Assembly (NCBI GenBank): GCA_029262855.1 | Contig: JAJCYP010000138.1 | Location: 1 to 64,000, forward strand | DNA: 64,000 nt | Reading direction: 5' to 3' | Source of the DNA: Bacteroidota bacterium | Lineage (GTDB): Bacteria > Bacteroidota > Rhodothermia > Rhodothermales > UBA10348 | In this document: piece by piece, positions 1 to 51,782 of the stretch | How positions within the stretch are numbered: the stretch's first letter is position 1 | Layout of the letters: each line of letters starts with the position of its first letter | Program-made: the position numbers and the translations under genes | The notes under the pieces: model-generated | What the model was told of the DNA's origin: nothing | Databases searched by the model: none | The model's input: only the letters and a program-made list of their open reading frames with translations

Positions 1-3000
1 GGCAAGGTCCGCGAGGACACCGCCGGCGACGTGAACCTGGACGGCAACGAGCCCGGCATCGACGGCGTGACCGTGGTGCTGTACAACGACGAGAACAATG
101 ACGGCGTCGTGGATGGCAGCGATACGATCGCCGGATCCACGGTGACGGCCAGCGGCGGCATGTACCTCTTCGAGGACCTGCCTGCCGGAGATTACCTCGT
201 TGACGTGGACAACTCTGATCCAGAGCTGGGAGCCAATTTCCCGGTCGACGAAATCGACTTCCCCGAGCCACGCGACGTGGCCCTCGGTGTTGATGAGGAC
301 AAGACCGGCGTCGACTTCCTGTTCGGCAGCGTCAAAATGGCCTCCTTAGGCGATCGGGTCTGGCTGGATCTGGATGGCGATGGCGTGCAGGACAACAACG
401 AGCCCGGTGTGGCCGGTGCGAAGGTGTTCCTGCAGGACGGCACTGGCACTTCGATCATGGACGGCAACGGCGTCTCGATGATCGAGACGATGGCCGACGG
501 GTTCTATGACTTCGTGGGACTCATGCCGGGTACCTACCAGGTGGCGATCACGCCGCCCTCCGGACTCGAGCTGACCACGCCTCCGAACCCGATGACGGGC
601 ATCGTGCTGACCTCAGGCGATGACGAGAACGATGTTGACTTCGGGCTGATTCCCGCGACCGGGAAGATCAAAGTCACGGTCTTCGATGACCAGAACGGCA
701 ACGGCATCCAGGACGGCGCCGAGCCGGGCTATGCCGGTGTCGATGTGGATATTGCCTCGTTCGGCCCCAACGGCGTCAACGAGGGGGGCGGCGGCGACGA
801 CTACGCCATGACGCTGACCACGGACGGGAGTGGCATGGCCATGACCACCGAGAACCTGATGCCGGGCAACTACGACGTGGAGGTCAATGCCTCCACCCTG
901 CCCACGACGGCCGACAATCCGACCACTCCAACCTCGGTGACGCTGAACATCAGCGGTGACGAAACGGAGATGGCTGCGTTTGGCTACGAGACGGCGGAGT
1001 CCATGATTTCGGGCGTCGTCTTTGACGACGCCAATGACTCGGGCACAAACGACTCAGAGCCGGGCATTAACGGGGTCACCGTCACCCTCTACGCGGACAC
1101 GGACGCCGTTCCGGACGGCGTGGGCGATGTGGTATTCGACCTGACCACGACGGCCCAGGTGAGCGGTGTCGACGGCTTCTACAAGTTCAACGACCTGCCG
1201 GCCGGCAACTATGTGGTGGACGTCGACAACAACGATGTCGACCTGGGCGGACGCATCCCGACGACCATGGAGCCCCGCTCCGAGATGGTCAACGGAATGA
1301 ACAGCGTGGCTAACGTGGACTTCGGTTTCGTGGCTCCGGCCAACAAGAACCGTGGCTCCATCGGCGACTTCGTCTGGCGAGACGACAACAACGACCAGAT
1401 CCAGGATCCAGGTGAGATCGGCGTGGCCGGCGTGGTGATCACGCTGTACAACGCGGATTCTGGCGGGACCAAGGGTACCGCGGTAGGCACGAAGACCACG
1501 GATGCGCTGGGTTTCTACCAGTTTGACGGGCTGCTTCCAGGCTTCTACGTGGCCGAGGCAACCGGCATTCCTTTCGGCTATTCCGCGTCTACCGGCACCA
1601 TGACCGGTGCCATAGAGCTGGACCCGGGTGAAAACTTCAACGGCGCCGATTTCGGCCTCCTGACCTCGGGAATGGTCGAGGGCCGGGTGTTCATGGATGT
1701 CAACGGCAACGGGACCTACGAGTCCACGCCGGACATGCTGATCACCCAGACCGTTGACGTGCGTCTGGTCGACGATCAGGGCGCGGTATTCGCGTCCCTG
1801 TCCGTCAGCGACGGGACGTACAAGTTCGACAATGTGCCTCCGGGCGATTACGAGGTCCTGGTAGACACGGCGATTCCGAACAAGACGGCTTCCACCGGCA
1901 ATCCCGTGGATGTCACGGTACCCCTGAATGGCGGTGCCTGGGCCGACGTTGGCTTCGAGGACAATACCGGCATGATCTCCGGTGTCGTCTTCGATGACAT
2001 CAACGGAGACGGTGACCAGGATCCCTTCGAACCGGGCATCAATGGCGTCAAGATCACGCTTTACGAAGACGTGGACAATGACGGTGCGGGCGATGTCATC
2101 ATCGGCATGCAGGATACCGCCACCATCAGCTCGGTCGACGGCTCCTACAAGTTCAATAACCTCGTCCAGGGTTATTACATCGTGGACGTGCTCGATTCGG
2201 ATGTGGCGCCGCTCCTGGCCACCTCGGCGGAGCCGAAGGGCGTGCAACTGGTCGGTCCAAATGACTCCGAGGAAGCCGACTTTGGCTTCTCGTCCGTGGC
2301 CAACAAGATGGCCTCCATCGGTGACCGCGTCTACCGCGACGACGACGGCAACGGCCTGCAGGGCCCGGGCGAGCCCGGACTGAGTGACGTGACCGTAACC
2401 ATCACCGGGCCGAACGGCTTCAGCGACGAGGCCGTCACGGACGGCACCGGCTTCTACGAATTCACGGGCCTCATGCCGGGCGACTACGTTGTCATGATCA
2501 CGGACGGTGATGGCGGCTACGACGCCACGCAGGGCGCCGGCGGCTACAACCAGACGCTGGCTGCGGGCGAGGACGAGAATGATGCCGACTTTGGTCTCCG
2601 TCCGACGGGCTCCATCGAGGGCTCTGCCTTTATGGACAACAACGGCAACGGCGTCAAGGACGGAGGCGACACGCCCATCAAGTTCGCGACCATTGAGCTG
2701 CTGCACGAAGATGGAACTCCCGTCATCCACGAAGGCAGCCCGGTCACAACGGACACCGACGCAAACGGAGGCTACTGGTTCTTCAACGTGGCGCCGGGAG
2801 ACGTCCTGGTGAACCTGGAGACCACCGACGAACCGGCAGACAAGGTCACCTCGACCGGCGACCCGATCACGGTCACCGTGCCTGAGAACGGCAACACGGC
2901 CAACAACAACATCGGTTACGAGCCCGCCACCGCGGAAATCTCCGGCATTGTCTTTATGGACAGCAATGGAGACGGCGTTCTGGATGGCGGCGAGCCTGGG

Positions 3001-6000
3001 CTCCCTGGCGTCAAGGTTACGCTCTACAACGATGACGACAATGACGGTGTGGCAGACGGGCAGGTCGGCATGGCGACCACCGGCCCGAACGGCGAGTACC
3101 TCTTCGGGGACCTGCCGCTGGGCACCTACATCGTGGATGTTCGAGACTCGGATGTCGATCCGCTGCTGGCCACCTCGGCCGAGCCTAAGAGCGTCACGAT
3201 CGACAATGCGATGGATGCGGAGACGGCCAACTTTGGCTTCTCCGAACTGGCCAACAAGATGGCTTCCATCGGTGACCGGGTCTACCGCGACGACAACAAC
3301 AACGGTACGCAGGACACCGGCGAGCCCGGACTGGGTGGTGTCACGGTGAACATGACGGGTCCAAACGGTCCCTTCTCGGTAGACACCGATGCCTCGGGCT
3401 TCTACGAGTTCAATGGCCTGATGCCGGGCGAATACATCGTCACGGTTGACGGGGCTGACGTCGCTGGCTTCACGGCCAACCAGGGCGCTGGCGGCCATAC
3501 CGAAGACCTCGCCGCGGGCGACGACTTCAACGACGCCGACTTTGGCTACGTGCCTACCGGCTCCATCGCGGGCAACATTTTCAATGACAATGACGGCGAT
3601 GGCTCCTATGAGCCCGGCGACAGCGAGACCGGTTTGCCCGACGGCACCACCGTCGAACTGCTCGACGACAACGGCGACGTCGTCGCTACCACCGCGACCA
3701 CCGGCGGCGACGGCTCGTTCATCTTCACCGATCTCCCGCCGGGAGACTACCAGGTCAACGTTCCCACGGAGCCCGCAGGCACCGAGGCATCGACCGGCAA
3801 CCCGATTGACGTCACCGTGGATCTGAACACGCCCACCACGGGTGCGGACGTAGGCTTCGAGCCGGCCACCAGTTCCATCGCGGGTACGGTCTTCGGCGAC
3901 GAGGACGCGAATCAGATCTTCGATGTCACCGAGAGCGATCTCGGTGACCTGATTCCGGTCACGCTCTACGAGGATGTGGACGGCTCGGGCACGGTCAATG
4001 CCGGCGACACGCTGGTCGATGACACCGTAACAGACTCGAACGGCGACTACCTCTTCGAGGATCTCCCACAGGGAGACTATCTGGTGGATGTGGGTGCCGT
4101 TACCGGCCTCCTGCCCACAACGGATGATCCGCTGGCGGTTACCACCGACGGCATCAATCCGGTAACAGATCAGGACTTCGGCTTCGTGAATCCGAACGCG
4201 GATGTGGCCTCCATCGGAGACACCATCTTCCAGGACACGAACGGTACGGGTGGTCAGGAAACGGGTGAGCCCGGCATCGCCGGCGTTGAGGTTTCCCTCT
4301 TCGCTGCGGACGGAATCTCGTCCGTCCTGGATGCCGACGGGGCACCGGTGACTCCCCAGACCACAGATGTCTCGGGCAGCTACCTCTTCAGCAACCTGGT
4401 CCCGAGTGACTATGTGGTCCGCGTGACCATGATGCCGGCACTCCACGTGCTGACGTTCGATCCGGACACCACGCAGGATGCAGAGACTGAGGTCACGGTC
4501 GCTGCGGGCGATGTCTACGTCGATGCCGACTTCGGGTATCAGCCCAAGGCAGGCATGATCTCCGGTACGGCCTTCCTGGATCTGGACGGCGACGGGGTAC
4601 AGGACAATGGCGAGCCCGGACTCAACGATGCAGCAGTGCACCTTATCGGTGCGGGCCCCGATGGTCTGTTCGGTACGACCGATGACCTCGAGGTCACGAT
4701 CTGGACCGAGACCAACGGCGATTACAAGTTCTTCGATCTCCCGCCAGGGATGTACGTGGTGGACGTCGAGGATCCGGCCAATACGGTCCCGACAACGCCC
4801 GATCCACAGGATGTCAACGTCGGCCCGAACGGGAACGTCACGGGTATCGATTTCGGCTACGAGCCCTCTGACAACGCGATCGCCGGAACGGTCTTCGAAG
4901 ACAAGAACGGCGATGGTGACCAGGATGTGGGCGACGACCCGGGTACGCCCGCGGTGAACGAGGATGAGCCCGGCATTGCGGGACTCACCGTCACGCTCGT
5001 GGATGCCGGTCCGGACGGCGTGTTTGACACGCCGGATGACGTGGTCGTGGACACAGACGAGACCGACGCGAACGGCGACTATTCGTTCGACAATATCCCG
5101 TCCGGCACCTACCGGATCGAGTCCGATGCGCCCGGTGGCCTTCTCGCCACGACGCCGAATCCGGTCACAGAAACGGTTGACTCGGGCGACACCCGAGACA
5201 TCGACTTCGGCTTCAACGACAATAAGATGGCGTCCATTGGCGACCTCGTCTTCGAGGATCTCAATGGCAACGGCATCCAGGATCCAGGTGACATCGGGAT
5301 CGCTGGCCTGACCGTCAAGTTGTTCAATGACACCAATGGAAACGGCGTGCTGGACGGCGCGGACGCGACCACTCCGGTGGCGACCACTACGACCAACGCG
5401 GCCGGTTTCTACTCCTTCCAACTGCTGCCTCCGGGTACCTACTTCGTGGACGTCGTGCCGCCGGCCGGCGGTGGTTTCGTCCCGACAGGTTCCCAGAACC
5501 GCGGCATCGAACGAGCTCCGATTGTGGTGGTCAGCGGAACGACCGTCCAGGATGCCGACTACGGCTATCAGCCTGTGGACGGATCCATCCTGGTCACGCT
5601 ATTCCAGGATTCCAACGGCAACGGCACGCAGGAGCCCGGCGAGAGCGGCCTGCTCGGACTGAACGTTACGCTGACTGGCCCGGCCGGACCGCAGTCTGGC
5701 ACCCAGACCGGCACGACCGACTCCAATGGCGAGTTCTGGTTCACCGACCTGATACCAGGCGTGTACACTGTGACGGCAGCCGGCCCCGCCGGAACCACAC
5801 AGACAGCTAGTGATCCGGAAGTGACACTCGGTTCTAACGAAGACCTGACGGCCGAACTGGGCTTCCGCTCGGTGAACTCCGCGATCAGCGGCACCACCTA
5901 TGGGGACGTGGATGGCGATGGGGTCTTCGATGGCACCGAATCCTCCGTGGGCGGCATCCCGGTCAAGCTGATCGGGCCCGGCCCCGATGGTGTGTTCGGT

Positions 6001-9000
6001 GGCGGAGATGATGTCGTACTGGCGACCACCACCAGCGATACTGGCAACGGGACCTACACCTTCCCCGGACTCGCTCCGGGCGAGTACCGCGTGGAAGTCA
6101 CTGCTCCAGGCACGATGGTGGTCACCACCTCCAACCCGCTCGCCATCACACTGATGGCCAACGAGACCGAGACGGCCAACTTTGGATTCAATTCCAACAA
6201 GATGGCCTCCATTGGCGATACCATCTTTGAGGACCTGAACGGCAATGGCGTGCAGGATTCGGGTGACACCGGCCTTGCTGGCGTGGATGTGAAGCTCTAC
6301 CTCGATGACGGCAACGGTATTTTCGAGGCCGGAAGTGACACGCCCATCGCCACGCAGACCACCAACTCGGCGGGCATCTACGACTTCACGGGCCTGAATC
6401 CAGGCACCTACTTCGTGGACGTACTCTCCTCCCCTGCCTATGCGGAGACGGGAGACTTCGAGGGCTCACCGAACGATCCAGACAACATCACCGGCAGCGA
6501 ACTGACCGCCATCACCGTGACGGACGGCCAGGACATCAATGGTGCCGACTACGGCCTGATGCCGAAGCGAGGCGAAATCCACGGTATCGTCTTTGACGAC
6601 ACCAACGGCAACGGCGTGCGGGATCCGGGCGAAGCTCCGATTCCATGGATAACGATTCGCCTGCGCAGCTGGGGTCCTGATGGAAATCAGGCAACCACCG
6701 CGGACAACGTGAATCTTACGGTCGAAAGCAACAGCGTCGGCAAGTACTGGTTCACCAACCTCGCACCCGGTAACTACTGGGTACGGCCGGTGGCTGCAGA
6801 TATTCCGGCCGGAAGCGCCGTGACGACGCCGGTGCCGATTCCGGTCACCATTGGCAGCAACACGGTTGTCAACGGTGTCGATCACGGCCTCCAGACCCGC
6901 AACAGTTCCATCGCTGGTGCGGCCTTTGAAGACAGCAACGGAAACGGTGTGGATGACGGCGCGTCCGAGCCCCCCATCGAGGGAGCCATCGTGACGCTCA
7001 TCAACGTCGGACCCGACGGCCTTCTGGGCGGCGGCGACGATACGGTTGCCGGCAATAGCCAGACGGACACCGGAGGCAACTATGCCTTCGCCGGACTGCC
7101 CCCTGGCAACTATCAGGTCACGGTGACACCACCGGCGGGCCAGGTAGCCACAACGGCGAATCCGAAACCCGTCGTGCTTGGTGCCAATGACTCGGCCACC
7201 GCCAACTTCGGCTTCAACAATAACAAGATGGCCTCCATCGGCGACCTCATCTTCCGGGATGACAATGGTGATGGTGTCCAGGATCCGGGCGAGCCGGGGC
7301 TGGCGGGTATCCAGGTCAAGCTGTACCGTGACGCACCGGGCGGCACGGTAGGCGCCTACGATGTGGGAGATGCCCTCGTCGGAACCAAGACCACAGACAA
7401 CGCGGGCTTCTACGACTTCACCGCACTCTCTCCAGACATCTACTTCGTGGATGTCGTGACTCCAAGCGGGTTCATGGCCACCGGAGCCGGTCCGTTCGGA
7501 GAGGAGAAAGATCCGATTCAGGTTATTTCGGGTGACGACGAGAACCGCGCTGACTACGGATTCCTGCCGATGAACGGCACGGTCACCGGTACGGTCTTCA
7601 ACGACCTTAACGGCAACGGCGTCCAGGATTCGAATGAGCCTGGCCTGGCTGACGTACCGGTTGTCATCACCGGCCCGGGTGGCTTCGAGGTCGAAACGAC
7701 CACGAACGCTCAGGGCGAATACACAGTAACCGGTCTGATTCCGGGCGCCTACACGGTGACGGTCGACGAGGCCTCTCCGAAGGTCCCGGATGGCGCCGTG
7801 CCCACAACGGGTAACCCTGTCAACGTGGATGTGGATGCCGGACAGGCCTCTGAGGCCAACGTCGGCTTCCAGACGCGCAACTCGACCATCGAGGGCGTCA
7901 CGTACGCCGATGTCAATGGCAACGGGGTCTATGACACGGGCGACACGTTGCTGGCCGGCGTCCCGATCAAGCTCATCAACCTGGGCGCGGACAACACGCC
8001 GGGTGGTGGAGACGACTACATCCACGACAGCGCGAATTCCGACACCAACGGCGAGTATTCCTTCACCGGTGTACCTCCGGGCACTTATCAGGTGGAAGCC
8101 ACGGCGCCCAACGGCGTGGTGTCTACGAGCTCCAACCCGCTGACGGTGGGTGTGCAACCTGACGAGACCGAGACCGCCGACTTCGGATTCAATACCAACA
8201 AGATGGCCTCCATTGGAGACACCGTCTTTGAGGACCTGAATGCGAACGGTGTGCAGGACAGCGGCGAAGTCGGAATCGAGGGGATTGAACTGACGCTCTA
8301 TCTCGACGATGGAGATGGTGTGTTCGAGCCCAGCAACGACACGGTCATTGGAACGGCCACGACCAACTCGGCCGGCATCTACGACTTCACTGGGCTCCTT
8401 CCGGGGACGTACTTCGTGGACATCACGGTGCCCAGTGGCCTGAACAACACGGGGTCGGCAGCGCACGGCCTCCCAGGTCAGCCCATTACCGTGACCGATA
8501 ACACGGACATCAACAATGCGGATTATGGACTGCTGCCGAGCACCGGCGAAATCCACGGCGTGGTGTTCGATGACATCAACAAGAACGGTGTACAGGATAC
8601 CGGCGAGTCCGGTCATGAAGGCTACCAGGTAGCCATCTATGGTCCAGGCCCTGACGGGGATTACGACACCGTGGCGGACAACGTGGCCGTTACCACCGTC
8701 ACCAACGCAGACGGCGAATACTGGCAGACCGATCTGCCGCCGGGCGACTACGTGGTCAACGTCGACGAGACGGCAGCACCATTCGGTTCGGTGAGCACCA
8801 CGCCCGATCCGGCCTTCATCTGGATTGGCGGTGGCAGCATCGTTACGACCAACTTCGGCATCATGCTCCCGGGCGGCGTGATTCAGGGCATCATCTTCTC
8901 GCATGATGACCAGAATGGCGTCCAGAACGGATCAGAAGCCGGCCTGGCAAACGTCACGATCACGCTCTTCGACCTGGGCGCCGACGGCACGGCCGGCACC

Positions 9001-12774: not shown

Positions 12775-12796
12775 ACCTGGCTCCTTCGGGAGTCTG

Positions 12797-12832
12797 AAAG
12801 GCCGGTCGGGGTTCGCCTCGACCGGCCTTTTC
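12797..12832 (+). terminator. Rho-independent terminator of the giant surface-protein gene
   Basis: A 15-pair stem (12797-12811 with 12816-12830, one G-U pair) is closed by a TTCG tetraloop and followed by a short T run. It begins 22 bases after the stop codon. Confidence 0.85.
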
Positions 12833-13303
12833 TGTTTTCGCGTTCTCCTGTACGCAGAAAAAAACCGCTTTTTCGCGCCTGTGTTGCGATTTGTCTGAAA
12901 GGCCTGATCCGGACGCCAAATCAGCCCAAAAACGGCTATCGCGTCTGAACTGTGTGATTCCTGCGTCGCGGCCGGAGCGTCGCTGACCGGACGTTTGCAG
13001 TGGCCCTGTCCGATTCGTTGCAGGCCCGGTTGGTGCAACATTCCGGCCCCTCATAGGAGCGCAAATCCCCATCTCAACCCCGTTATAACCTCTGGTCGCA
13101 GTCAGGAACCCCTGGCCAAGACCCGAGCCGGATCAACGGAGGTTGCGCTCTACCGACTCGACCGCAGACTTCGGTCTGCAAACCACATATCCCCCGGCGT
13201 CCGCTGAACCATACACCTGATGACCTTCTGCCACCCGGCAGAGATCGAGTTCGCTCGATGGTCGTCGAGATCGCATCCAACCATGTTGGAAGACAGCTAC
13301 GCC
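12833..13303. other. Intergenic leader region, no gene recognised
   Basis: About 470 bases between the terminator of the first surface-protein gene and the chosen start of the second. Short open frames here lack coding character. The region presumably carries the promoter and 5' leader of the next gene, but I could not pick a convincing promoter. No tRNA, riboswitch or repeat was recognised. Confidence 0.5.
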
Positions 13304-16300
13304 ATGACCAGTCAAAATCGCATCCGTTCGCGCTCCCGCGCTTCGATCGCAGACTTCACTGCCTGGGCGCTCTTCGCGCTCCTGCTTCTCGCCGTGGCCT
13401 TGCCGGCCGCCGCTCAATCCTATACGCCCAAGGTTGACCTTGAGCTCACCAAAGCCGTCGACAAGCAGTATGCTGCCAAGGGTGAGGATGTCATTTACAC
13501 GATTACGGTTTCCAACAAGCCGTTCTACGGTTCGGCCGCGAAGGCAACGAACATCTATGTAAAGGACTACCTGCCCAACGGACTCACCGCGCTGGCCTAT
13601 TCGGCCACCACCGGCGGCGAGAACGGCATCACCTTTGATTTCAGCACGCTGACGTGGAAAATCGAGTGGTTGAACGCCGGGCAGTCGGTTGATCTCCAGT
13701 TCAAAGCACGCGTCAACGAGGTTGGCGAGTTCAAGAACTGCGCAGAGATCTGGGACGCCGATCAGCAGGACATCGATTCGAAGACCGGGGCCGAGGCCTA
13801 CGGTCCTCTTGCCGGTCTATACAACGGTGAGGACGACGAGGACTGCGCGGAATTCTGGGGCGTGGCCTCCGGCTCCATTTCCGGAATGGTCTTCGATGAC
13901 CTGGACGGCAATGGCCTCTTTGACAGCTACGAGGGCGGTCTGGGGGGGTTCGAAATTGACCTCAACACCATCGGCGATGATCATACGTGCGGTACGTACG
14001 ATGACACCGAGGTCGCCTCCACCGATTCCGATAGCAACGGCAACTACACCTTCTGGGATGTAGTACCCGGCACCTACTGCGTTGAGATTGACGACATCAC
14101 GATTCCCCAAGGCTTTCAGCGGACGACGGCGAATCCAGTCAAGGTCAAACTCGAGGCAGGTCAGGATGTGACGGGCATCAAATTCGGATTCCTGAAGCCA
14201 CGTATCGATCTCGAGCTCACCAAGGTGGTGGACAACGAGAATCCTACGGTCGGCGACAAGGTGACGTTCACGCTGACACTCACCAACAACAACATTGATC
14301 AGTACGGACAGACGGTCCCGACGGCCACGGCCACCGGAATCCAGATAGCCGACTACCTGCCGCTCGGTCTGCAGCTCCACGAGGGCTCAAGCGGCTATGG
14401 CAGCTCCTTCGATGCGGCTGGCACCACGTGGACGATTGATCGTCTGGAAGCTGGCAAGAGCATCTCGCTGGTTCTGACGGCGCTCGTCGTAACGGATGGC
14501 GAGTTGACTAACTGCGCGGAAGTCTGGGACGCCCATCAGAGGGACCGCGACAGCAAGACGGGCGCTGAAGCGTACGGACAGCTTGTCGGCGGCGCGGACG
14601 CCGAAGACGACCAGGACTGCGCCAGCCTTTGGGCACAGCCGCGGACCATCGACCTCGAACTGACCAAGGTGGTCGACAACGCCTACCCGACCGTCGGTGA
14701 CAAGATCAACTTCACCCTGACCCTGACCAACAACGATGAGTACGGTACGGTCAAGACGGCCACGGCAACGGGCATTCAGGTCAAGGACTACCTCCCGCAC
14801 GGACTGACCTTTCATGAGGCATCTCCCCTCGGGTACGGCGTCTCGTTTGACGAGGGAAGCCTCACCTGGCACGTAGATCAGCTCGACGCCGGCAAGAGCA
14901 TCTCGCTGGTTATCAGTGCGCTCGTCTCCAAGGACGGTGAGTTCACCAACTGCGCCGAGGTTTGGGATGACAACGAATTCGATCGTGACTCCAAGACTGG
15001 AGCCGAAGCGTATGGCGAGCTGGTCGGCGGCCCGGATGCCGAAGACGATCAGGACTGCGCCAGCCTCTGGGCCAGCCCCCGGACGATTGACCTGGAGCTG
15101 ACCAAGGTGGTGGACAACGCCTACCCAACCGTCGGCGACAAGGTGAGCTTCACGATCACCGTGAAGAACAACGACGAGTTTGGAACGGCCGAGACGGCCA
15201 CCGCTACCGGCATTCAGGTCAAGGACTATCTCCCGCAGGGTCTGGGTCTGCACCAGGCGCTTGCACCGGCTGGGACGTACTTCGACCAAGGCAGCACCAC
15301 CTGGCACATCGACCAGTTGGGAGCCGGCAAGAGCCTCTCGCTGGTTCTTGAGGCGGTTGTCAACACGGACGGTGAGTTCACGAACTGCTCCGAGGTCTGG
15401 GACGATAACGAATTGGACCGCGACTCCAAGACGGGTGCCGAAGCAGGCGGAGAGCTTGTCGGTGGCGCGAATGCCGAGGACGACCAGGATTGCGCCTCCC
15501 TCTGGGCGACGCCGGCCTTCATCGACCTCGAGGTCACCAAGACCATGGACAAGACCAACCTCGCGGTCGGCGATGTCGCCGAGTTCACAATCGTTGTCAC
15601 CAACAATGACCAGTACGGTCCGGTTGTGAAGGCCACCAACGTGATGGTGACCGACTACCTGCCCCAGGGCTTCTGGTTGATTGAGGGTTCAAGCGACTAC
15701 GCGTCCTCACACGGCGTGACGTTCGATGACACCAACATCAAGTGGTCGATCGAATGGATCGGTCCTGGCGATTCGGTGGTCCTCACGTTGAAGGCACGTG
15801 CCGAGAAGGCCGGCGAGTTCAAGAACTGCGCTGAGGTTTGGGATGCGGACCAGAAAGACAAGGACTCCAAGACCGGTGCCGAAGCCGGTGGCGCTCTGGT
15901 CGGTGACGAGGACGACGACGACTGCGTCGACTTCTGGGTGGCCGAGGCCGAAAAGCCGCTGATCGACCTGGAACTGGACAAGGCCATTGACAACACCAAC
16001 CCGGAGGTTGGAGACCACGTGACCTTTACCATCACGGTCACAAACAACGACGTCGAGAACTACCAGCAGGTACCGACCGCGAAGGCCACCAACGTCTTCG
16101 TCAAGGACTACCTCCCCGCCGGCCTGTGGGTGATTGGAGGAACCAGCGATTACGCCGGATCCAACGGCATCACCTTCGACACGGTCAACAACACCTGGAA
16201 GATCGAGTGGATCGCCGCCGGACAGTCGGTGACGCTGAAACTCAAGGCACGGGTCGATCAGAAGGGCGAGTTCGAGAACTGCGCCGAGGTATGGGACGCG

Positions 16301-18103
16301 GACCAGTTGGACCGTGACTCGAAGTCGGGTGAGGTGGCCGGTGGCAAACTCATCGGCGACGAAGACGATGACGACTGCGTGGCCTACTGGGTCGGCGGCG
16401 GCATCGTGCCTCCTCCCGCAGGAAAGGGCTCCGTGACCGGTGTGGTCTTCCACGACCTCAACTACAACGGTATCCTGGACTACGGCGAGCAAGGCCTCCC
16501 CGGATTCGAGGTAGACCTCACGGACCTCGGTTCTGACTACGTCTGCGGTGGCTACGATGACACCGAGCTGGCGACGGATGACACGGACGCCTACGGCGCC
16601 TACAGCTTCTGGGACGTGGATGCCGGTACCTACTGCGTCCGCATCCTGGATGCGGCCATCCCTTACGGTTACACCCGCACATCACCGGATCCAGTGAAGG
16701 TGGTGGTCACCGCGGGCGGCAACGTTGTGGTCAACTTCGGCTTCAAGTCCGGCTACACGCCTCCGCCGCCGCCGCCCTCTGGCGACGCGCTCTGCTACCT
16801 GGTGGCGGACAACGACGGCACCGGATACGGAAGCGCTGATGTGCTGACTCGCCTCAACGAAGGCGCCTATCAGGACGTCGTGATTGGTGGCACACAGACC
16901 GAGTTGATTGAGGCGATTGCCTTCAATCCCTGGAACAAGCGACTCTACGCTTCGGACGCTCGCTCCCTGGGTACGCTGGACCTCTACTCCGGCACGTACA
17001 CCAAGATTGGCGAGTACGGTGGCGGCGAGGGTGCGGACGGGTGGCTCGCGTTCCTGGACGTCGACGGCCTGACCTTCGACCCCTACTCCGAGACGCTGTT
17101 TGGCTCGGTTCGCCGGACCGGCGAGCGCGATCTGCTCATCCAGATCGATGCCTCCACCGGAAGCGCCGTCAAGAACGCGTTCGGCTACGGCGTGGACTAC
17201 CTGGTCATCCAGCCCGAAACCGGTTCCTACTACGGACCTGAGTTGGACGACATCGATGATCTGGCTATCGATCCGGAGACGAAGAAGCTCTTCGCCATCA
17301 ACAACCACGATGGCATGCACAGCCGCCTGGTGGTCATCGACCCGAACACGGGTTGGATCAACAAGGTGCTTGAGCTGCCCGTTGACAACGTCGAGGGCCT
17401 GGCCTTCTTCAACAACGGCACGCTCTACGGCACCGCCGGCGAAGGCACCGAAGCCATCGTGGAGATTGACAAGTACAGCCTGCAGGTCACGGTTCACGCC
17501 TCCATCGGAGTCGACGGCAACCGTGACTACGAGTCCATCGATTGCCTCACGGCCGCTCCGTCCTACCTCTCGGTGGCCGTTGCCACCGGAACGCAGGTGG
17601 ACCTTTACCGCGACCTGGACGAAGATGGCCTCATCTCCAGCACCGACCTTTTGGTCGCGACGACCACGGCAGAAGATGGCGAAGCCATGTTCGCAGTCGC
17701 TGCGACGGGCGCCTTCCTGATGCAGGCGAATGATGCCGGCACGCCGATGGTAGTCGCTGCTGCGGTCGACGGATACGGGCTCAACGTCGCTGCCGGCGGC
17801 GCTCTGGGAACGGCCAACGAGTCGGATCTCGATCTGCCGAGCGGCTTCGGACTGGCGGGCAACTACCCGAACCCGTTCAATCCGCAGACCACGGTTCGCT
17901 TCGAGATGCCGGAGAGCGGTCAGATCCGCCTCTCGGTCCATGACGTCCTCGGACGTGAAGTGTCCGTCCTCATCGACGGTGTCATCGGAGGCGGCGTGCA
18001 CGATGTGACCTTCGAAGCCGACGACCTCCCGAGCGGCACCTACATGGCCCGCCTGTCTGGCGCCCTTGGCGTCCAGACACGGACCATGGTCCTCCTCAAG
18101 TAA
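13304..18103 (+). CDS. Secreted DUF11-repeat surface protein with propeller-like and type IX sorting domains
   Basis: The product is 1,599 residues. The ATG at 13304 gives a normal signal peptide (basic Arg-rich N-region, hydrophobic LLLLAVALPAAAQS core, cleavage near residue 38); in-frame ATGs at 13283 and 13220 would only add a poor leader. Order: DUF11 repeat, SdrD-like module with paired cysteines, five more DUF11 repeats, second SdrD-like module, a proline linker, the propeller-like domain shared with the flanking paralogues, and a sorting domain (NYPNPFNPQTT, HDVLGREV, SGTYMAR). Each DUF11 repeat opens with a D-L-E-L-T/D-K-x-x-D motif and ends in an acidic NCAEVWDA...DDxDC cassette. Its likely role is a stalk-like surface adhesin or matrix protein on the cell exterior. 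Its own terminator follows. The binding target is unknown. Confidence 0.88.
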   Translation: MTSQNRIRSRSRASIADFTAWALFALLLLAVALPAAAQSYTPKVDLELTKAVDKQYAAKGEDVIYTITVSNKPFYGSAAKATNIYVKDYLPNGLTALAYSATTGGENGITFDFSTLTWKIEWLNAGQSVDLQFKARVNEVGEFKNCAEIWDADQQDIDSKTGAEAYGPLAGLYNGEDDEDCAEFWGVASGSISGMVFDDLDGNGLFDSYEGGLGGFEIDLNTIGDDHTCGTYDDTEVASTDSDSNGNYTFWDVVPGTYCVEIDDITIPQGFQRTTANPVKVKLEAGQDVTGIKFGFLKPRIDLELTKVVDNENPTVGDKVTFTLTLTNNNIDQYGQTVPTATATGIQIADYLPLGLQLHEGSSGYGSSFDAAGTTWTIDRLEAGKSISLVLTALVVTDGELTNCAEVWDAHQRDRDSKTGAEAYGQLVGGADAEDDQDCASLWAQPRTIDLELTKVVDNAYPTVGDKINFTLTLTNNDEYGTVKTATATGIQVKDYLPHGLTFHEASPLGYGVSFDEGSLTWHVDQLDAGKSISLVISALVSKDGEFTNCAEVWDDNEFDRDSKTGAEAYGELVGGPDAEDDQDCASLWASPRTIDLELTKVVDNAYPTVGDKVSFTITVKNNDEFGTAETATATGIQVKDYLPQGLGLHQALAPAGTYFDQGSTTWHIDQLGAGKSLSLVLEAVVNTDGEFTNCSEVWDDNELDRDSKTGAEAGGELVGGANAEDDQDCASLWATPAFIDLEVTKTMDKTNLAVGDVAEFTIVVTNNDQYGPVVKATNVMVTDYLPQGFWLIEGSSDYASSHGVTFDDTNIKWSIEWIGPGDSVVLTLKARAEKAGEFKNCAEVWDADQKDKDSKTGAEAGGALVGDEDDDDCVDFWVAEAEKPLIDLELDKAIDNTNPEVGDHVTFTITVTNNDVENYQQVPTAKATNVFVKDYLPAGLWVIGGTSDYAGSNGITFDTVNNTWKIEWIAAGQSVTLKLKARVDQKGEFENCAEVWDADQLDRDSKSGEVAGGKLIGDEDDDDCVAYWVGGGIVPPPAGKGSVTGVVFHDLNYNGILDYGEQGLPGFEVDLTDLGSDYVCGGYDDTELATDDTDAYGAYSFWDVDAGTYCVRILDAAIPYGYTRTSPDPVKVVVTAGGNVVVNFGFKSGYTPPPPPPSGDALCYLVADNDGTGYGSADVLTRLNEGAYQDVVIGGTQTELIEAIAFNPWNKRLYASDARSLGTLDLYSGTYTKIGEYGGGEGADGWLAFLDVDGLTFDPYSETLFGSVRRTGERDLLIQIDASTGSAVKNAFGYGVDYLVIQPETGSYYGPELDDIDDLAIDPETKKLFAINNHDGMHSRLVVIDPNTGWINKVLELPVDNVEGLAFFNNGTLYGTAGEGTEAIVEIDKYSLQVTVHASIGVDGNRDYESIDCLTAAPSYLSVAVATGTQVDLYRDLDEDGLISSTDLLVATTTAEDGEAMFAVAATGAFLMQANDAGTPMVVAAAVDGYGLNVAAGGALGTANESDLDLPSGFGLAGNYPNPFNPQTTVRFEMPESGQIRLSVHDVLGREVSVLIDGVIGGGVHDVTFEADDLPSGTYMARLSGALGVQTRTMVLLK

Positions 18104-18110
18104 GCGGGAT

Positions 18111-18149
18111 GCAGGACCGCAGGGCGCCCGCCCTGCGGTCCTGCTTTTT
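18111..18149 (+). terminator. Rho-independent terminator after the second surface-protein gene
   Basis: A perfect 16-pair GC-rich stem (18111-18126 with 18129-18144) is followed by five T. It starts 7 bases after the stop and rules out the far-upstream ATG at 18109 as the real start of the next gene. Confidence 0.9.
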
Positions 18150-18204
18150 CCCTGGCGGGACTCTCTCGCCCAAGCCCAAGCACCCGCTCACACACCGGAC
18201 AATT

Positions 18205-21200
18205 ATGTCACACTCTCTCCTCCATCGGATCGGCAAGGCCCTGCTGCCTGCAGCCACGGCACTCCTTCTTGGGGTTCCTTCGGCGCAGGCCGCTTCAGGA
18301 TTTGACGGCGGATCTGATCTCAAACTCACAAAGACGGTCTCGAACGCATCGCCCGCAATCGGCGAGCGGATTGACTTCACGGTCACCGTCCATAACTACG
18401 GCGAGGCCACCAACCTGGCCAAGGTCCGGGACGTCTTCAACGACGGCGCCGACTGTGCCGAGGTGATCGGCCAGCCGCAGTTCTCGCACGGCAACTGGAC
18501 GGGCACCCCCGAGCAGGGCTTCCTCTGGACCGGCACCATGGGCGCCGGACAGACGCTGACGGTGACGCAGGCCGTGCGGGTCACCTGTAACACGGCATTC
18601 TCCAACAAGGCCTCGATTATCACGTCGGGATCCAACCCGGACACCAACAACAGCGGCCACTCGGCCGAGGTGTGGGTCAACCCGGTTCCGAGCACGGACA
18701 TCGAGGTCATCAAGACCGTTTCGCATGCCGATCCCGTGGTCGGTCAGCGTATCGAGTTCAACTTTACCGTCACCAACCACGGCCCGGCCGTTTACGGTGT
18801 GGTCATCCGCGACGTGATGGCAGACCCAAACGGGTGCTTTGACCGCATCAACCGACCGACCGTGTCCCGCGGCTACGCACAGGTCGGCGACTACAAGACC
18901 GTGACCTGGGTGCTGAATCTGGGTGCCGGCGAGTCGGCCACCTACAGCCAGTTCGGCTGGGTCGCGTGCAACACGACGTTTACCAACACGGCCACCGTGG
19001 AGAGCGGCGGAACGCTGCCGGACATGACTCCGGCCAACAATACGTCCATGGTCATCGTCCGCCCCGCACAGGGAAAGACCATCGACCTGGAGGTCACCAA
19101 GGTGGTGGACAACCCCTACCCGCTGGAGGGAGACATCGTCACCTTCACCGTCACGCTGGCCAACAACACCGAATCGAAAGACGGCCGGACGTTCCCGACC
19201 AATATTGCCCGCGACATTCAGGTCAAGGACTACCTCCCGCACGGCCTCACGCTGGTGGACGCCAGTACCGGCCTCGGTACGTTTGACGAGGCAACGACCA
19301 CATGGCACCTCGAGGAACTGAACCCCGGCAAGGCCACATCGCTCGTCATCCGCGCCAAAGTGGAGGCCGAGGGCGAATACACCAACTGCGCCGAAGTCTG
19401 GGATGCCGACATGCCCGACCGCGACTCTACCACCGGCGCCGAGGCCGGAGGACCGCTCGTGGGCGCCAAGCGTCAGGACGATGAAGACTGCGCCAGCATG
19501 TGGGCCGGCGCGCTCCTGGTCGACCTTGAGGTCCTCAAGGTGGTCGACAACGCGAACCCCATCCAGGGTGACATCGTCACCTATTCGATCACGGTGACCA
19601 ACCGGGATCACATTGACGGACGACAGATTCCGACGGCCGACGCCACGGACATCACGATTGCCGACTACCTGCAGCCCGGACAGCACTACGTGGACGGCTC
19701 GGCCACGGTCGGCGGCGCGAACCGCATCACATTCAACCCGCACAACACGTCCTGGTACATCGAGTCCCTGCGGGCCGGAAAGTCTCTGACACTGGTCATG
19801 CAGGCCGAGATGGTCAACGCCGGTGAGTACTCCAACTGCGCCGAGGTGCACGCCGCGGCCCCGAACGACCGCGATTCGCGCACGGCAGTTCAGGCCGGCG
19901 GACCGCTGGCCTATGGCTACGAGGCGGAGGACGACCAGGCCTGTGTGTCTGTCTGGGTAACACCCAGGCGGCCTGACCTGGAACTGATCAAGGTCGTATC
20001 CAACGAGACGCCGCGGGTTGGCGACTTCGTGACCTACTCGATCACCGTGACCAACCGTGAGTTTGAGCAGGGCACGCGGATCCCCACGGCCTCGGCCACG
20101 AACGTGGTCATCAAGGACTATATCTCCAAGCGCCTATGGTTTCAGGAGGGATCGGCCACCGATTCCAGCATCCCCGGACAGCCGGGCGGCGTCACCTTCG
20201 ACGAGCACGCCTTCACCTGGACGGTCAACGAGATCCGCCCCGGCAAGTCGCTCACGGTCTCCTTCGAGGCCCGCGTGGACGACGACGGTGAGATCCGTAA
20301 CTGCGCCGAGATCTGGGACGCCGATCAGGGCGACCGAGACTCGCGCTCCGGTGCCGAGGCCTACGGCAAGCTTGTTGGCGGCCCCGATGCCGAGGACGAT
20401 CAGGACTGCGTTTCCATCTTCGTGGACCAGGCGCCTGAGCCGGCCGGATCGATCTCAGGAATGGTCTTCCTCGACACCAATGTCGACGGTCTCTTCAACC
20501 ACTACGAGACCGGCCTTGGCGGCTTCGAGGTGGACCTGCTGACCATCGGTTATGACCGCACCTGCGGTACGTTCGACGATGTGGAGATCGCCACCCTCGA
20601 CTCTGACAAGAGCGGCAACTTCACCTTCTGGGATGTCGAGACAGGCGAGTACTGTGTCCGCATTCTGGATATCACGATCCCGGCCGGGTTCTTCCGGACC
20701 ACCGCGGCCCGCGTGCCGGTCTGGGTATCGGGCGGCAGCCACGTAACCGGCATCCAGTTCGGCTTCCGTGAGTCGTACCCGTCCTACCCTCAGGCGCCCA
20801 GCGATGACCCGCTGTGCTATCTGACCGGTAACCGCGAGGTGACCACGTTCGCCCCGGGTGCGCTATCTGATGTTCGCCTATCCGGCCTTTCCGAAGACCT
20901 CGCGGCGGTGGCCTACAGCCCGTGGAACGAGACGCTCTACGCGACCGATGGCGAGGCGCTTGGGATGGTCGATCCCGTCAGCGGCGAGTTCTCCCGCATC
21001 GGAATGATCGGCTCCGGCGAGGGAAGTGCCGGCTCTCAGGACTTCTCGGGCGTGACCGGCCTCACCTTCGATCCCTTCCAGGGTCGCCTGTTCGGCATCG
21101 TGCAGCGGGAGGGCGCCGATGACCTCGTCATTGAGATTGACCCGCTGTCAGGCATGGCCGTGAAGGGCGCCTTTGGGCCCCGCAGCGACTACCTCATGGT

Positions 21201-22299
21201 GGGAGCCGATCTTCCCCAGGTGGACGATATCGCCATCAATCCGGTGGACGGCGGGCTCTACGCCGTGGGAACGGCGGACGGAACCAGCGCCCGCATGGCC
21301 CGCATTGACCGCACCTTCGGGACGGTCGATGAGGTTCGCGATCTGGGAACGGCCAGGCTGAACGGACTGTCGTTCTTCAACAACGGCGAACTGTTCGCTT
21401 CGACGGCCACGGACATTCCGCTCCTGATCAACCTGGACATCGGCATCGATATCTCGATCACCATCGAGGCGACGCTGGGTCAGGGTTCGTACGGATCGGC
21501 CGGCAACGGCGTCGGCTACACGGATCCTGGCGCGCCGACGGCGCCGGGCCATGGTTCGGGCTACACGCCGGGCTACGGCACGGGCGGCTCCGGCACCGGC
21601 GGCAGTGGTTACCCCACCGGCGGCGGCTACGGCGGCCTTGACTGTCTGACCGGCAGGGTCAACGAACTCGGGACGACCCTCTTCTCCGACGCCAACGGCG
21701 ACGGGCTCTTCCAGAGCGGCGAAAGCGGCTTTGCCGGTGTCGAGGTCGATCTCTTCCGTGACCTCAACGCAAACGGAACGCTGGATATCGGCGATGTGCT
21801 GGTCGCACAGGCCACCTCCGGTGATGACGGTCAGGTTCGCTTCGCGACGGCGTCCAACGGCGACTTCCTGATGCAGGTGGTCTCCTCGAGTCTGCCCTTC
21901 GGCGCGCACACGCTGACGAACGGACCGGTCGCCGGTACCGTTGGAGGCTTCGGGCTCTCGGCCACCGATACGGGCGTTCCTGTGACGGGCGCCTTCTCGA
22001 CGGCCTCGCAGGATGAGCCGGTGACGGAACTACCAGCCGAGTACGCGCTGGACGGCAACTACCCCAACCCGTTCAATCCGCAGACGACGGTGACCTTCCA
22101 GGTGCCTGAGTCCGGACAAATCCGGTTGGCCGTGTACGATGTCCTCGGTCGCGAAGTGGCCCTCCTGCACGACGGCAACATCGCCGCCGGGCGCCACGAG
22201 GTGACCTTCCGCGCCGAGGCCATGCCAAGCGGCACCTACTTCGCCCGCATGGTAACCGCCTCCGGCGTTCACGCCAGACCCATGATTCTGATCAAGTAG
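18205..22299 (+). CDS. Secreted DUF11-repeat surface protein with Gly-rich insertion and type IX sorting domain
   Basis: The product is 1,364 residues. The ATG at 18205 gives a signal peptide (LLPAATALLLGVPSAQA, cleavage near residue 31); the open frame upstream runs through the preceding terminator and is not coding. Order: two divergent DUF11-like repeats with different cysteine positions, three DUF11 repeats of the same type as in the preceding gene, one SdrD-like module with two cysteines, the propeller-like domain, a Gly/Ser/Tyr/Pro-rich stretch (about 21475-21640), an SdrD-like module and the sorting domain (NYPNPFNPQTT, YDVLGREV, SGTYFAR). It is a paralogue of both flanking genes. The Gly-rich stretch replaces the conserved GNRDYE loop of the paralogues. 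It is probably exported to the cell surface; the ligand is unknown. Confidence 0.88.
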   Translation: MSHSLLHRIGKALLPAATALLLGVPSAQAASGFDGGSDLKLTKTVSNASPAIGERIDFTVTVHNYGEATNLAKVRDVFNDGADCAEVIGQPQFSHGNWTGTPEQGFLWTGTMGAGQTLTVTQAVRVTCNTAFSNKASIITSGSNPDTNNSGHSAEVWVNPVPSTDIEVIKTVSHADPVVGQRIEFNFTVTNHGPAVYGVVIRDVMADPNGCFDRINRPTVSRGYAQVGDYKTVTWVLNLGAGESATYSQFGWVACNTTFTNTATVESGGTLPDMTPANNTSMVIVRPAQGKTIDLEVTKVVDNPYPLEGDIVTFTVTLANNTESKDGRTFPTNIARDIQVKDYLPHGLTLVDASTGLGTFDEATTTWHLEELNPGKATSLVIRAKVEAEGEYTNCAEVWDADMPDRDSTTGAEAGGPLVGAKRQDDEDCASMWAGALLVDLEVLKVVDNANPIQGDIVTYSITVTNRDHIDGRQIPTADATDITIADYLQPGQHYVDGSATVGGANRITFNPHNTSWYIESLRAGKSLTLVMQAEMVNAGEYSNCAEVHAAAPNDRDSRTAVQAGGPLAYGYEAEDDQACVSVWVTPRRPDLELIKVVSNETPRVGDFVTYSITVTNREFEQGTRIPTASATNVVIKDYISKRLWFQEGSATDSSIPGQPGGVTFDEHAFTWTVNEIRPGKSLTVSFEARVDDDGEIRNCAEIWDADQGDRDSRSGAEAYGKLVGGPDAEDDQDCVSIFVDQAPEPAGSISGMVFLDTNVDGLFNHYETGLGGFEVDLLTIGYDRTCGTFDDVEIATLDSDKSGNFTFWDVETGEYCVRILDITIPAGFFRTTAARVPVWVSGGSHVTGIQFGFRESYPSYPQAPSDDPLCYLTGNREVTTFAPGALSDVRLSGLSEDLAAVAYSPWNETLYATDGEALGMVDPVSGEFSRIGMIGSGEGSAGSQDFSGVTGLTFDPFQGRLFGIVQREGADDLVIEIDPLSGMAVKGAFGPRSDYLMVGADLPQVDDIAINPVDGGLYAVGTADGTSARMARIDRTFGTVDEVRDLGTARLNGLSFFNNGELFASTATDIPLLINLDIGIDISITIEATLGQGSYGSAGNGVGYTDPGAPTAPGHGSGYTPGYGTGGSGTGGSGYPTGGGYGGLDCLTGRVNELGTTLFSDANGDGLFQSGESGFAGVEVDLFRDLNANGTLDIGDVLVAQATSGDDGQVRFATASNGDFLMQVVSSSLPFGAHTLTNGPVAGTVGGFGLSATDTGVPVTGAFSTASQDEPVTELPAEYALDGNYPNPFNPQTTVTFQVPESGQIRLAVYDVLGREVALLHDGNIAAGRHEVTFRAEAMPSGTYFARMVTASGVHARPMILIK

Positions 22300-22331
22300 A
22301 CGTCTCTCCCCGACACGACTTCTTGATCCTC

Positions 22332-22370
22332 GAGGGCCGGCTCCGTTGCGGGGGCCGGCCCTCCCTTTTT
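22332..22370 (+). terminator. Rho-independent terminator after the third surface-protein gene
   Basis: A 10-pair stem (22332-22341 with 22354-22363) is followed by CC and five T. It starts 32 bases after the TAG stop. Confidence 0.8.
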
Positions 22371-22373
22371 GGG

Positions 22374-22456
22374 GTCTGCCCCGCCCGACTTGGGCGTCTG
22401 GCCCGCGCGACCTGGCGTCTGGCCCGCGCGACTTGGGGTCTGGCCCGCGCGACTTC
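22374..22456. repeat. Four tandem copies of a 21-22 bp GC-rich unit
   Basis: Units begin at 22374, 22396, 22417 and 22438 with the consensus GTCTGGCCCGCGCGACTTGG. They lie between the third surface-protein terminator and the start of the fourth gene, in a region with no other feature. No palindromic spacer structure like a CRISPR array is present. Function unknown; it may be a slippage repeat in the promoter region. Confidence 0.8.
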
Positions 22457-22511
22457 AGCCCCCGGCCCAGAGGCCGATACCCGATATGATTGCACTCTAT
22501 CGGATGACGCC

Positions 22512-23639
22512 ATGTCTGCTCGTATTGCCTGGATCGCCTTCTTCGCACTCGTAGCCTTGCCGGCCCTCGGCCAAACTGCCGACACCGCGGACTACTGCTA
22601 TCTGGTGGCCGACAACAACGGCGTCCGTTTCGACGCCGACGTACTGACGGCCGTCCACAAGTCGACAGGCATGGAGCAGGAAATCGGCCAGACAGGCACC
22701 CTGAATATCGAGGCCGTCGCCTTTCATCCCTTCCATGCGTCCGTCTACGCCGCGGATGGTGGCCTCTTGGGCAACATTGATCTGACAACGGGCCGCTTTG
22801 CCCCGATCGGGTGGTTGGGTACAGCGTATGGCGACGAGGGTCCGCTGAGTGCCGGCGACGTCGACGGGATGACCTTCGATCCCCAGACGGCAGAGCTTTG
22901 GGGATCCATCCGCAGGCCGGACGCGGACTTTCTCGTACAGATTGACCCTGCCAGCGGCCGGGTGGTACAGGATGCCTTCGGCAATGGACGTGACTATGTT
23001 CGCGTAGAATTCAGCGGTCAGGATATCGATGTGGACGACATCGCAATGAGTCCCACCACAGGCGAACTGTTTGCCGTGGTCACGGACACGCAGCAAAACT
23101 CGACCCTCGTCACGATTGACCGGCAGACCGGGGTGGCCAGCAGCATCGCTGCGCTGACCATGGCCGATCTCGAAGGCCTCACCTTCGAAGCCAGTGGCCG
23201 CCTGTATGCGACTCCGGGTGGCGATGGCGAGAACATGGTGGAGCTTGACGCGGCCACCGGCCAGGTCACTCCGTTCGCTCCGATCGGCGTGAACAGCAAT
23301 CGAGACTACGAGGCCGTCACCTGCATGGCCTACGGCGCTCTGGGTGCAGCCGCGGAGGATGACCTGGTTCTTCCCGGTCAGGTCTCCCTGATGCCGGCTT
23401 TTCCGAACCCCTTCAACCCATCCACCACCCTCGGCTTCGCGTTGCCAACGGGCTCTGACGTTCGCCTGGTGGTCTACGACATGCTCGGCCGCGAGGTGGA
23501 GCGCCTGGCAGACGGCTACTGGGCTGCCGGGCAACACGAAGTCCGCTTCGACGCCAGCCACCTGCCCACCGGACTTTACATGTATCGGCTTTCCGGCCGC
23601 GACTTCGTGCTCACGCGGTCCGTAACGCTGCTCCGCTGA
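22512..23639 (+). CDS. Small secreted propeller-like protein with type IX sorting domain
   Basis: The product is 375 residues. The ATG at 22512 gives a clean signal peptide (MSARIAWIAFFALVALPALG, cleavage near residue 21); the frame open further upstream only translates the 21-22 bp repeat. The mature protein is just the domain shared with the C-termini of the three preceding genes: it begins CYLVADNNG, has repeated blades such as A-F-x-P-x-x-x-x-V/L-Y-A and D-x-x-T-G, and ends NRDYEAVTCM. A sorting domain follows (PNPFNPSTT, YDMLGREV, TGLYMYR). It is the minimal version of the family, without DUF11 or SdrD stalk. The repeats suggest an NHL/YncE-like beta-propeller, but no family was confirmed. 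Its stop codon directly abuts the stop of the convergent lysine aminomutase gene, with no terminator between. Confidence 0.85.
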   Translation: MSARIAWIAFFALVALPALGQTADTADYCYLVADNNGVRFDADVLTAVHKSTGMEQEIGQTGTLNIEAVAFHPFHASVYAADGGLLGNIDLTTGRFAPIGWLGTAYGDEGPLSAGDVDGMTFDPQTAELWGSIRRPDADFLVQIDPASGRVVQDAFGNGRDYVRVEFSGQDIDVDDIAMSPTTGELFAVVTDTQQNSTLVTIDRQTGVASSIAALTMADLEGLTFEASGRLYATPGGDGENMVELDAATGQVTPFAPIGVNSNRDYEAVTCMAYGALGAAAEDDLVLPGQVSLMPAFPNPFNPSTTLGFALPTGSDVRLVVYDMLGREVERLADGYWAAGQHEVRFDASHLPTGLYMYRLSGRDFVLTRSVTLLR

Positions 23640-29200: not shown

Positions 29201-29685
29201 ACCGGCTCGAACCGGTTCAGTGTCCGGTTTTTCCGGACGGCATCATAGGCAAAAACTCGCCCGTTCATGGTGACCCAGACCCCTTCCGGCAACGTCTGCA
29301 CGGCAGCCAGTGCAAAACCGATGTTGAACTCGGCGTCGGAGTTCTTGAACCGCGCAGGCGCCAGGGATCCGACCATCACGATGGTTTTTCCCTTCACGGC
29401 GGCCAGCGCCTTACCGGTTTCAACCATCGTGTCTGTTCCGTGCGTGATCAGGACACGCCGCGCCTCGGTGGCCTCAACCCTGCGGCAGATCTCATCTCGA
29501 TCGGCCTCCGTCATCTCCAGACTGTCCTTGCGGAAGGGCGTCTCAACCGTGAACTCTACCTGCGCCCCGACCATGCGAAGAATCTCTGCGATCTGAGGCT
29601 CGCCCACCTGATAGTCGCTGGAGGCGTCGAAGTAGACCTTGTCGATGGTGCCACCAGTAGAAATGATGGCGATGGGCTCCTGCAT
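29197..29685 (-). CDS. Single-domain asparaginase-like protein
   Basis: The product is 162 residues. The ATG at 29685 is preferred because upstream sequence in this frame belongs to hutI in another frame. It contains only the N-terminal domain of type I/II L-asparaginases: the TGGTID nucleophile motif at residues 10-15 and THGTDTM at 81-87, which holds the second catalytic Thr-Asp pair. Usual asparaginases are about 330 residues with a second domain; that domain is absent and the downstream sequence is a different gene, so this looks like a natural short family rather than a frameshift. Hydrolysis of asparagine to aspartate and ammonia is plausible but unproven. It sits 2 bases after hutI and overlaps the metallopeptidase gene by 4 bases. 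Confidence 0.78.
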   Translation of the reverse strand: MQEPIAIISTGGTIDKVYFDASSDYQVGEPQIAEILRMVGAQVEFTVETPFRKDSLEMTEADRDEICRRVEATEARRVLITHGTDTMVETGKALAAVKGKTIVMVGSLAPARFKNSDAEFNIGFALAAVQTLPEGVWVTMNGRVFAYDAVRKNRTLNRFEPV

Positions 29686-44216: not shown

Positions 44217-44240
44217 CCGTGCGGACCATGGTCCGCACGG
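44217..44240. other. Axis of the giant inverted repeat
   Basis: The symmetry centre falls between 44228 and 44229 within GGACCATGGTCC. There is no unpaired spacer. In each arm the axis is flanked by GGACC, seven bases, then GGACC again. Nothing here resembles a transposon end or a known protelomerase site. Confidence 0.95.
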
Positions 44241-44278
44241 CGGTCCACTCCATCGCCGGCGAGCATCCGCACAGGAGC

Positions 44279-44319
44279 AAAAGAGAAACGGGCCCCGGCG
44301 CCAAGCGCCGGAGCCCGTT
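44279..44319 (-). terminator. Mirror copy of the tonB terminator
   Basis: Same stem as 44138-44178 on the opposite strand. The two hairpins face each other across the axis, about 100 bases apart. Confidence 0.85.
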
Positions 44320-44375
44320 CATCATTTTGCTGCGCCTGGAGGTTGGTCGCCCGGAGGCGCTCCTCTTGGCGTCAG

Positions 44376-51741: not shown

Positions 51742-51782
51742 CCCTATATTTCTGGACTTACGAGAATTCTGAGGACGCCGGA

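Follow-up and report, generated by a model that had tools for sequence, protein, structure and literature searches.

Tandem genes for related surface proteins are known from Staphylococcus aureus, in which the sdrC–sdrD–sdrE array encodes proteins with 2, 5 and 3 B repeats, respectively, and C-terminal anchors of one common type (PMC3098876). The Periscope Proteins are a described case of projection on stalks that vary in length (PMC9704523). The type A cargo of the type IX secretion system (T9SS) is, in the organisms studied, processed at its C terminus: PorU removes the sorting domain and the new C terminus is joined to lipopolysaccharide (PMC10202324, PMC8545088). Lipopolysaccharide anchoring of type A cargo in these organisms is also stated in a further source (PMC9143113). 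Besides being anchored, T9SS effectors can reach the medium (PMC10202324).

Here we analyse four neighbouring genes in a window of 64,000 nucleotides (the whole stretch of DNA that was analysed). We consider it likely that they form a locally expanded family of proteins that are exported by the T9SS and anchored to the outer membrane, with a propeller domain at the membrane and a stalk that points outward. Repeated duplication at one chromosomal site would have produced surface proteins that share a C-terminal unit and range in length from 375 residues to more than 5,000.

Four genes share a C-terminal unit

The four genes are co-directional neighbouring open reading frames (ORFs), followed by a convergent gene:

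1–12774 (+): gene 1, 3′ part only (4,257 amino acids); 32 SdrD_B modules, 2 DUF11 modules, propeller, 1 SdrD_B module and T9SS type A sorting domain
1–10512 (+): SdrD_B stalk of gene 1, 32 SdrD_B modules
11386–12150 (+): propeller of gene 1
13220–18103 (+): ORF of gene 2; likely start 13283, alternative 13304
16784–17551 (+): propeller of gene 2
18109–22299 (+): ORF of gene 3; likely start 18205
20806–21651 (+): divergent propeller of gene 3, with a Gly-rich insert before the last strand
22323–23639 (+): ORF of gene 4; likely start 22512 (375 amino acids from there)
22587–23327 (+): propeller of gene 4
23640–24845 (−): KamA-like convergent gene with the look of a radical-SAM aminomutase, named from its own sequence and not from a family search

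Genes 2, 3 and 4 begin with a hydrophobic, signal peptide-like N terminus (judged by eye). In gene 2 this is followed by six DUF11 and two SdrD_B modules, the propeller and the sorting domain; in gene 3 by five DUF11 modules, one SdrD_B module, the divergent propeller, a second SdrD_B module and the sorting domain; and in gene 4, which has no stalk, by the propeller and the sorting domain. Stretches that match the SdrD_B family (PF17210) number 33 in gene 1, 2 in gene 2 and 2 in gene 3, and stalk lengths span none to more than 3,700 residues. The shrinking stalks described in an earlier note on this DNA are therefore borne out by the domain counts of all four genes.

That note had also described four adjacent paralogues with a common C terminus. 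Pairwise identity among the four propellers is 31–54%, a single propeller profile scores all of them at 290–386 bits, and each protein ends in a sorting domain; the shared region is homologous in the four. The NRDYE motif, said to close the domain in three of them, was found in genes 1, 2 and 4 but not in gene 3. A modular set of surface proteins with one conserved C-terminal unit is thus supported.

The modules of the stalks differ in how closely they resemble one another. Among the pairings tested in gene 1, neighbouring SdrD_B modules are about 33% identical on average and every third module about 42%, with a maximum of 65%; the stalk of gene 1 is built as a three-module super-repeat. The DUF11 modules of gene 2 are 47–74% identical. 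Beyond the KamA-like gene, a 514-amino-acid ORF (window 27698–29242, −) carries an HEYVH metalloprotease-like motif and a C terminus resembling a T9SS sorting domain, and has an ortholog in the related genome G001.

Hairpins separate the genes

Strong hairpins with T-rich tails follow the first three genes:

12796–12831 (+): intrinsic terminator-like hairpin after gene 1, 16 pairs; present after the G001 ortholog too
18111–18144 (+): terminator-like hairpin after gene 2, 15 pairs, T tail
22332–22363 (+): terminator-like hairpin after gene 3, 13 pairs

The listed ORF starts of genes 3 and 4 stand upstream of such hairpins. In G001, strong hairpins of unrelated sequence lie 3′ of the gene 2 and gene 3 orthologs, where a rule-based terminator scan gave no site (by the rule, they are without a T tail). 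The terminator-like hairpins after genes 1–3, together with the hairpins after the G001 orthologs, suggest that genes 1–4 are separate transcription units; a single operon is unlikely given these hairpins. Between the hairpin of gene 3 and the start of gene 4 lie four copies of a 21-bp G+C-rich repeat (22369–22455).

Gene 1 continues on a second contig

Gene 1 is truncated by the start of its contig (C138). Another contig of the same genome, C58, ends within an ORF of 1,180 amino acids that is 65% identical to residues 224–1069 of a 5,721-amino-acid ORF in G001, and the part of gene 1 in the window aligns with residues 1441–5721 of that same ORF at 71%. Because the two ORFs match successive parts of one G001 ORF, the N-terminal region of gene 1 can be assigned to C58, with about 370 residues apparently still missing between the contigs; we infer that the full gene is likely to be near 5,600 amino acids. 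Its N-terminal part (L022:1–3542, −) has a signal peptide-like N terminus, two DUF7467 domains, DUF11 and further stretches without a family match. This DUF7467-bearing part is likely to be the far end of the longest stalk. Genes 2 and 3 open with DUF11 modules, and distinct far-end domains are found only in gene 1. The cluster also exceeds four genes: on C58, gene 1 is adjoined by a gene with two propellers.

To its other side, contig C138 folds back on itself. It is 88,456 bp long, exactly 2 × 44,228, and forms a perfect inverted repeat about 44228/44229, so that window positions 44229–64000 are the perfect reverse complement of the sequence to their left. All pairs inside the window (24457–64000) and then 39,228 pairs with the right end added were compared, with 0 mismatches. 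The inverted repeat is almost certainly an assembly fold-back artefact. Since the right half exactly mirrors the left, genes to the right of 44228 are not independent, and the perfect mirror rules out second gene copies there. Contig C52 of the same genome, with mirror-symmetric matches of identical score at 12547–12840 (+) and 47523–47816 (−) and a second such pair at 4770–5021 (−) and 55342–55593 (+), is probably a second fold-back contig.

The gene set is kept in a sister species

G001 belongs to the same genus. On one 2.1-Mb contig it carries, in a row, six propeller genes and one gene without a propeller (464 amino acids), in the order 1,618 (two propellers), 5,721 (gene 1), 1,964 (propeller), 464, 1,617 (gene 2), 1,536 (gene 3) and 380 amino acids (gene 4). 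Genes 1–4 and their G001 counterparts are one-to-one orthologs of the same order and architecture. Identity between orthologs is 75–87% for the propellers and 71–81% for the stalks of genes 1–3 (the leader of gene 4 has only 25 residues). The domain counts of genes 2–4 agree between the two genomes, with the module after the propeller of gene 2 at the edge of detection. In a propeller tree, genes 1–4 each group with their own G001 ortholog with full support, rather than forming a clade together. The one-to-one orthology and the conserved order and domain counts place the gene set and its stalk lengths before the split of the two species. A recent tandem duplication of one unit is ruled out by the same tree.

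Across the class, the propeller was detected at E < 1e-20 in 14 of 245 genomes, 11 of them in this bacterial family. Seven family genomes of other genera hold a complete propeller (G003, G004, G007, G010, G011, G013 and G017), and in all seven a propeller gene adjoins the same flanking gene as on C58. On the other side it is bordered in G010, G011, G013 and G017 by the KamA-like gene, which marks the right-hand limit of the locus and is conserved there in the family. The site is empty in G015 and G023, where both flanking genes are present, only 630–790 bp apart. Propeller genes across the family thus appear to occupy one chromosomal site. In the tree, gene 4 groups with propellers from the G010 gene on the KamA side, and the propellers of C58 with the other G010 gene; for this reason the outermost genes of the cluster look oldest and those between them look like later additions. 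The set would have arisen at one ancestral chromosomal site, through duplication and the gain of domains, and each gene, its stalk length included, would then have been kept as a distinct gene.

The earlier note had suggested looking for long and short versions together in related genomes. They co-occur within this genus, and none were found together beyond it: a complete stalkless gene was found only in the window and in G001, as was the full four-gene set. A fragment at a contig end in G027 may be another stalkless gene.

A predicted five-bladed propeller with a putative axial site

An AlphaFold model of the gene 2 propeller, made using only sequences from the window, has a pLDDT of 87.7 and a pTM of 0.88. 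It contains four complete four-stranded blades and a fifth formed by the first three strands and the last strand; on our reading of the DSSP strand list, the predicted propeller has five blades. Foldseek searches with this model returned many generic propellers and none that was specific (TM at most about 0.6), with designed or mostly non-enzymatic propellers as the best matches. For a model of gene 4 that included the sorting domain, the PorZ structure 5m11 was among the top ten fold matches. A sequence search of the PDB with the propeller gave nothing convincing, with no solved structure at E < 0.01. The earlier note's idea would have failed on a common enzyme domain; the models point to generic propellers and to no specific enzyme family.

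An alignment of 39 propeller copies reveals a candidate site. An acid occupies the same register of the innermost strand in 34, 36, 38, 34 and 37 of the 39 copies for blades 1–5, respectively, and two cysteines, one in the first strand and one in the last, are found in all 39. The closing blade, made of the first and last strands, is probably stapled by these two cysteines as a disulphide, and the simplest reading of the five acids is a putative binding site, within the axial channel, for a cation or a polar ligand. Gene 3 and its G001 ortholog have lost four of the five acids and kept both cysteines and the acid of the third blade. The propellers thus define an uncharacterised five-bladed family with a testable site of five acids and two cysteines, of which gene 3 is a natural loss variant.

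One acid on each innermost strand recalls metal-binding propeller enzymes. The domain might then be a surface-displayed enzyme, such as an SMP-30/paraoxonase-type lactonase or esterase with a metal in the channel, and gluconolactonases and squid DFPase are indeed among the fold matches. Fusions point the same way: a paralogue joins the propeller to a di-haem peroxidase (C59), and a G010 protein joins it to a metallophosphoesterase. We nevertheless regard an enzyme as distinctly unlikely, given the designed or mostly non-enzymatic character of the best fold matches, the lack of any histidine among the near-invariant columns of the 39-copy alignment and the failure of the sequence search to reach a solved structure. 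Other copies of the propeller are joined to a sortilin-like propeller region (C58) and to FG-GAP repeats (G001). The peroxidase-fused protein (L021:4256–7567) consists of a di-haem cytochrome c peroxidase (CCP_MauG) domain, the propeller, an SdrD-like module and a sorting domain; its propeller is closest to that of a G001 protein that bears FG-GAP and DUF11 modules instead.

Two Pfam families touch the propeller. DUF4394 weakly matches five of eight propellers (best E 7e-8) and DUF6923 three of eight. The gene 4 propeller stays under the gathering cut-offs (DUF6923, 25.0 bits against 27; DUF4394, 23.7 against 29.6), and a G010 relative with three propellers reaches a total of 50.2 bits for DUF6923. 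A distant relation to DUF6923/DUF4394 is likely on these profile matches. No paper naming DUF6923 was found in the literature searched, and a scan of named genomes with the propeller yielded one weak partial match; no segment of the propeller alignment was sufficiently conserved to serve such a scan.

The propeller lies close to the sorting domain

Type A sorting domains close all four proteins, each above the curated TIGR04183 cut-off of 23 bits:

12517–12771 (+): T9SS type A sorting domain of gene 1, 41.2 bits
17846–18100 (+): T9SS type A sorting domain of gene 2, 30.5 bits
22042–22296 (+): T9SS type A sorting domain of gene 3, 32.3 bits
23382–23636 (+): T9SS type A sorting domain of gene 4, 34.0 bits

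The host genome encodes PorU (961 bits against a cut-off of 420) and SprA (1970 bits against 200). From the type A sorting domain and the presence of both proteins we infer the following path. An N-terminal signal peptide would start the export of each of the four proteins, which would cross the outer membrane through the SprA translocon; PorU would then cut off the C-terminal sorting domain, and the new C terminus would be fixed to the cell surface. As the propellers of genes 1–4 lie 21–134 residues from the C-terminal sorting domain, they should sit at the surface, under the stalk. The propeller, just before the anchor, would be at the membrane, and the DUF11 and SdrD_B modules N-terminal to it would form a rod pointing outward.

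This geometry bears on the earlier note's model, in which one constant binding head is held at graded heights by differing stalks. The stalks really do differ, from none to thousands of residues, their lengths are kept in the sister species, and in other members of the protein family the propeller and the sorting domain can be as much as 2,528 residues apart. In all four genes here, however, the propeller adjoins the sorting domain, which would put the heads at equal height. Nor is the head constant, given the modest identity among the four, the loss of acids in gene 3 and the absence of a single clade, and the same set was found only in the sister species. Graded display of one head is therefore highly unlikely. 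With the propeller at the base, different experiments become worthwhile.

The spacing is not fixed across the family. There, the distance from propeller to sorting domain ranges from 20 to 2,528 residues, so the propeller is a mobile module of the protein family. Its constant company is the sorting domain: it is found on 28 of 30 propeller ORFs, and the remaining two stop at a contig end or no more than 59 bases from one, so the note's question of whether the propeller always accompanies a type IX sorting domain is answered with yes for those 28, the other two running out at or near a contig end.

PorU may release the products of genes 1–4 instead of anchoring them. A related reading is that, rather than being anchored individually, the proteins are secreted and shed, or form part of an extracellular matrix or sheath through polymerisation or packing of their Ig-like rods. 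A structural role would fit stalks made of many DUF11 and SdrD_B modules, T9SS effectors can go to the medium as well as to an anchor (PMC10202324), and the same genome holds another tandem array of T9SS paralogues. Against this, the organisms studied attach their type A cargo to lipopolysaccharide (PMC10202324, PMC9143113), and no sign of polymerisation came up in analyses directed at other points. We judge a sheath or shedding to be fairly unlikely. Under the favoured reading, with anchored proteins and a propeller at the membrane, a specific role for the propeller can be imagined, which we put forward as a rather improbable one: a membrane-proximal docking module that would orient the outward stalk by binding a glycan through a bridging cation. 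The glycan might be lipopolysaccharide of the same cell, and gene 3 would have given up this binding.

Comparison with known systems

Like T9SS type A cargo (TIGR04183/PF18962; PMC10202324), the proteins combine a sorting domain with a signal peptide-like N terminus in a genome that encodes PorU and SprA. No paper combining DUF11 with the T9SS was found in the literature searched, and, as far as searched, a propeller with a DUF11/SdrD_B stalk is an undescribed T9SS cargo architecture. PorZ (PMC8545088; PDB 5m11) likewise has a propeller followed by a type A sorting domain, but it has two seven-bladed propellers and a sorting domain that is not cleaved, and no sequence relation to the propeller described here was seen. 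The docking role considered above compares with PorZ as a two-propeller protein that binds lipopolysaccharide. Arrays of T9SS paralogues are not unusual in this genome, because contig C114 (3000–30800; L025–L027) holds another, with six sorting-domain proteins of 872–1,880 amino acids in two paralogue groups.

The earlier note's statement that no such system had been described proves too strong in view of two precedents, the sdr array (PMC3098876) and the Periscope Proteins (PMC9704523). Periscope Proteins resemble the present ones as single-chain, surface-attached proteins with repeat stalks (PMC9704523). Their stalks, built of a variable number of highly identical repeats, bear a head at the far end, whereas neighbouring repeats of gene 1 share only about a third of their residues and the lengths of genes 2–4 are kept between species; in this comparison, which covers two species only, the domain counts of genes 2–4 did not change. 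In genes 2 and 3 the propeller stands at the anchor end and not at the far end. Membership of the Periscope class is ruled out by the divergence of the repeats in gene 1 and among the DUF11 modules of gene 2.

The nearest precedent, by analogy of layout, is the staphylococcal sdrC–sdrD–sdrE array. Both are tandem sets of surface paralogues with SdrD B-type modules in differing numbers, which genes 1–3 contain, and a common C-terminal sorting signal. The sdr proteins, however, use an LPXTG sortase and the Gram-positive wall and have a far N-terminal binding A region, an SD-repeat region and no propeller at the anchor; the C termini of genes 1–4 are T9SS type A sorting domains in place of the LPXTG signal of MSCRAMM Sdr proteins, and no Pfam family for an N-terminal ligand-binding A region was found in the four proteins or the C58 part. 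The four-gene set is alike in plan to the sdr array but not a member of it, and can be seen as its T9SS counterpart.
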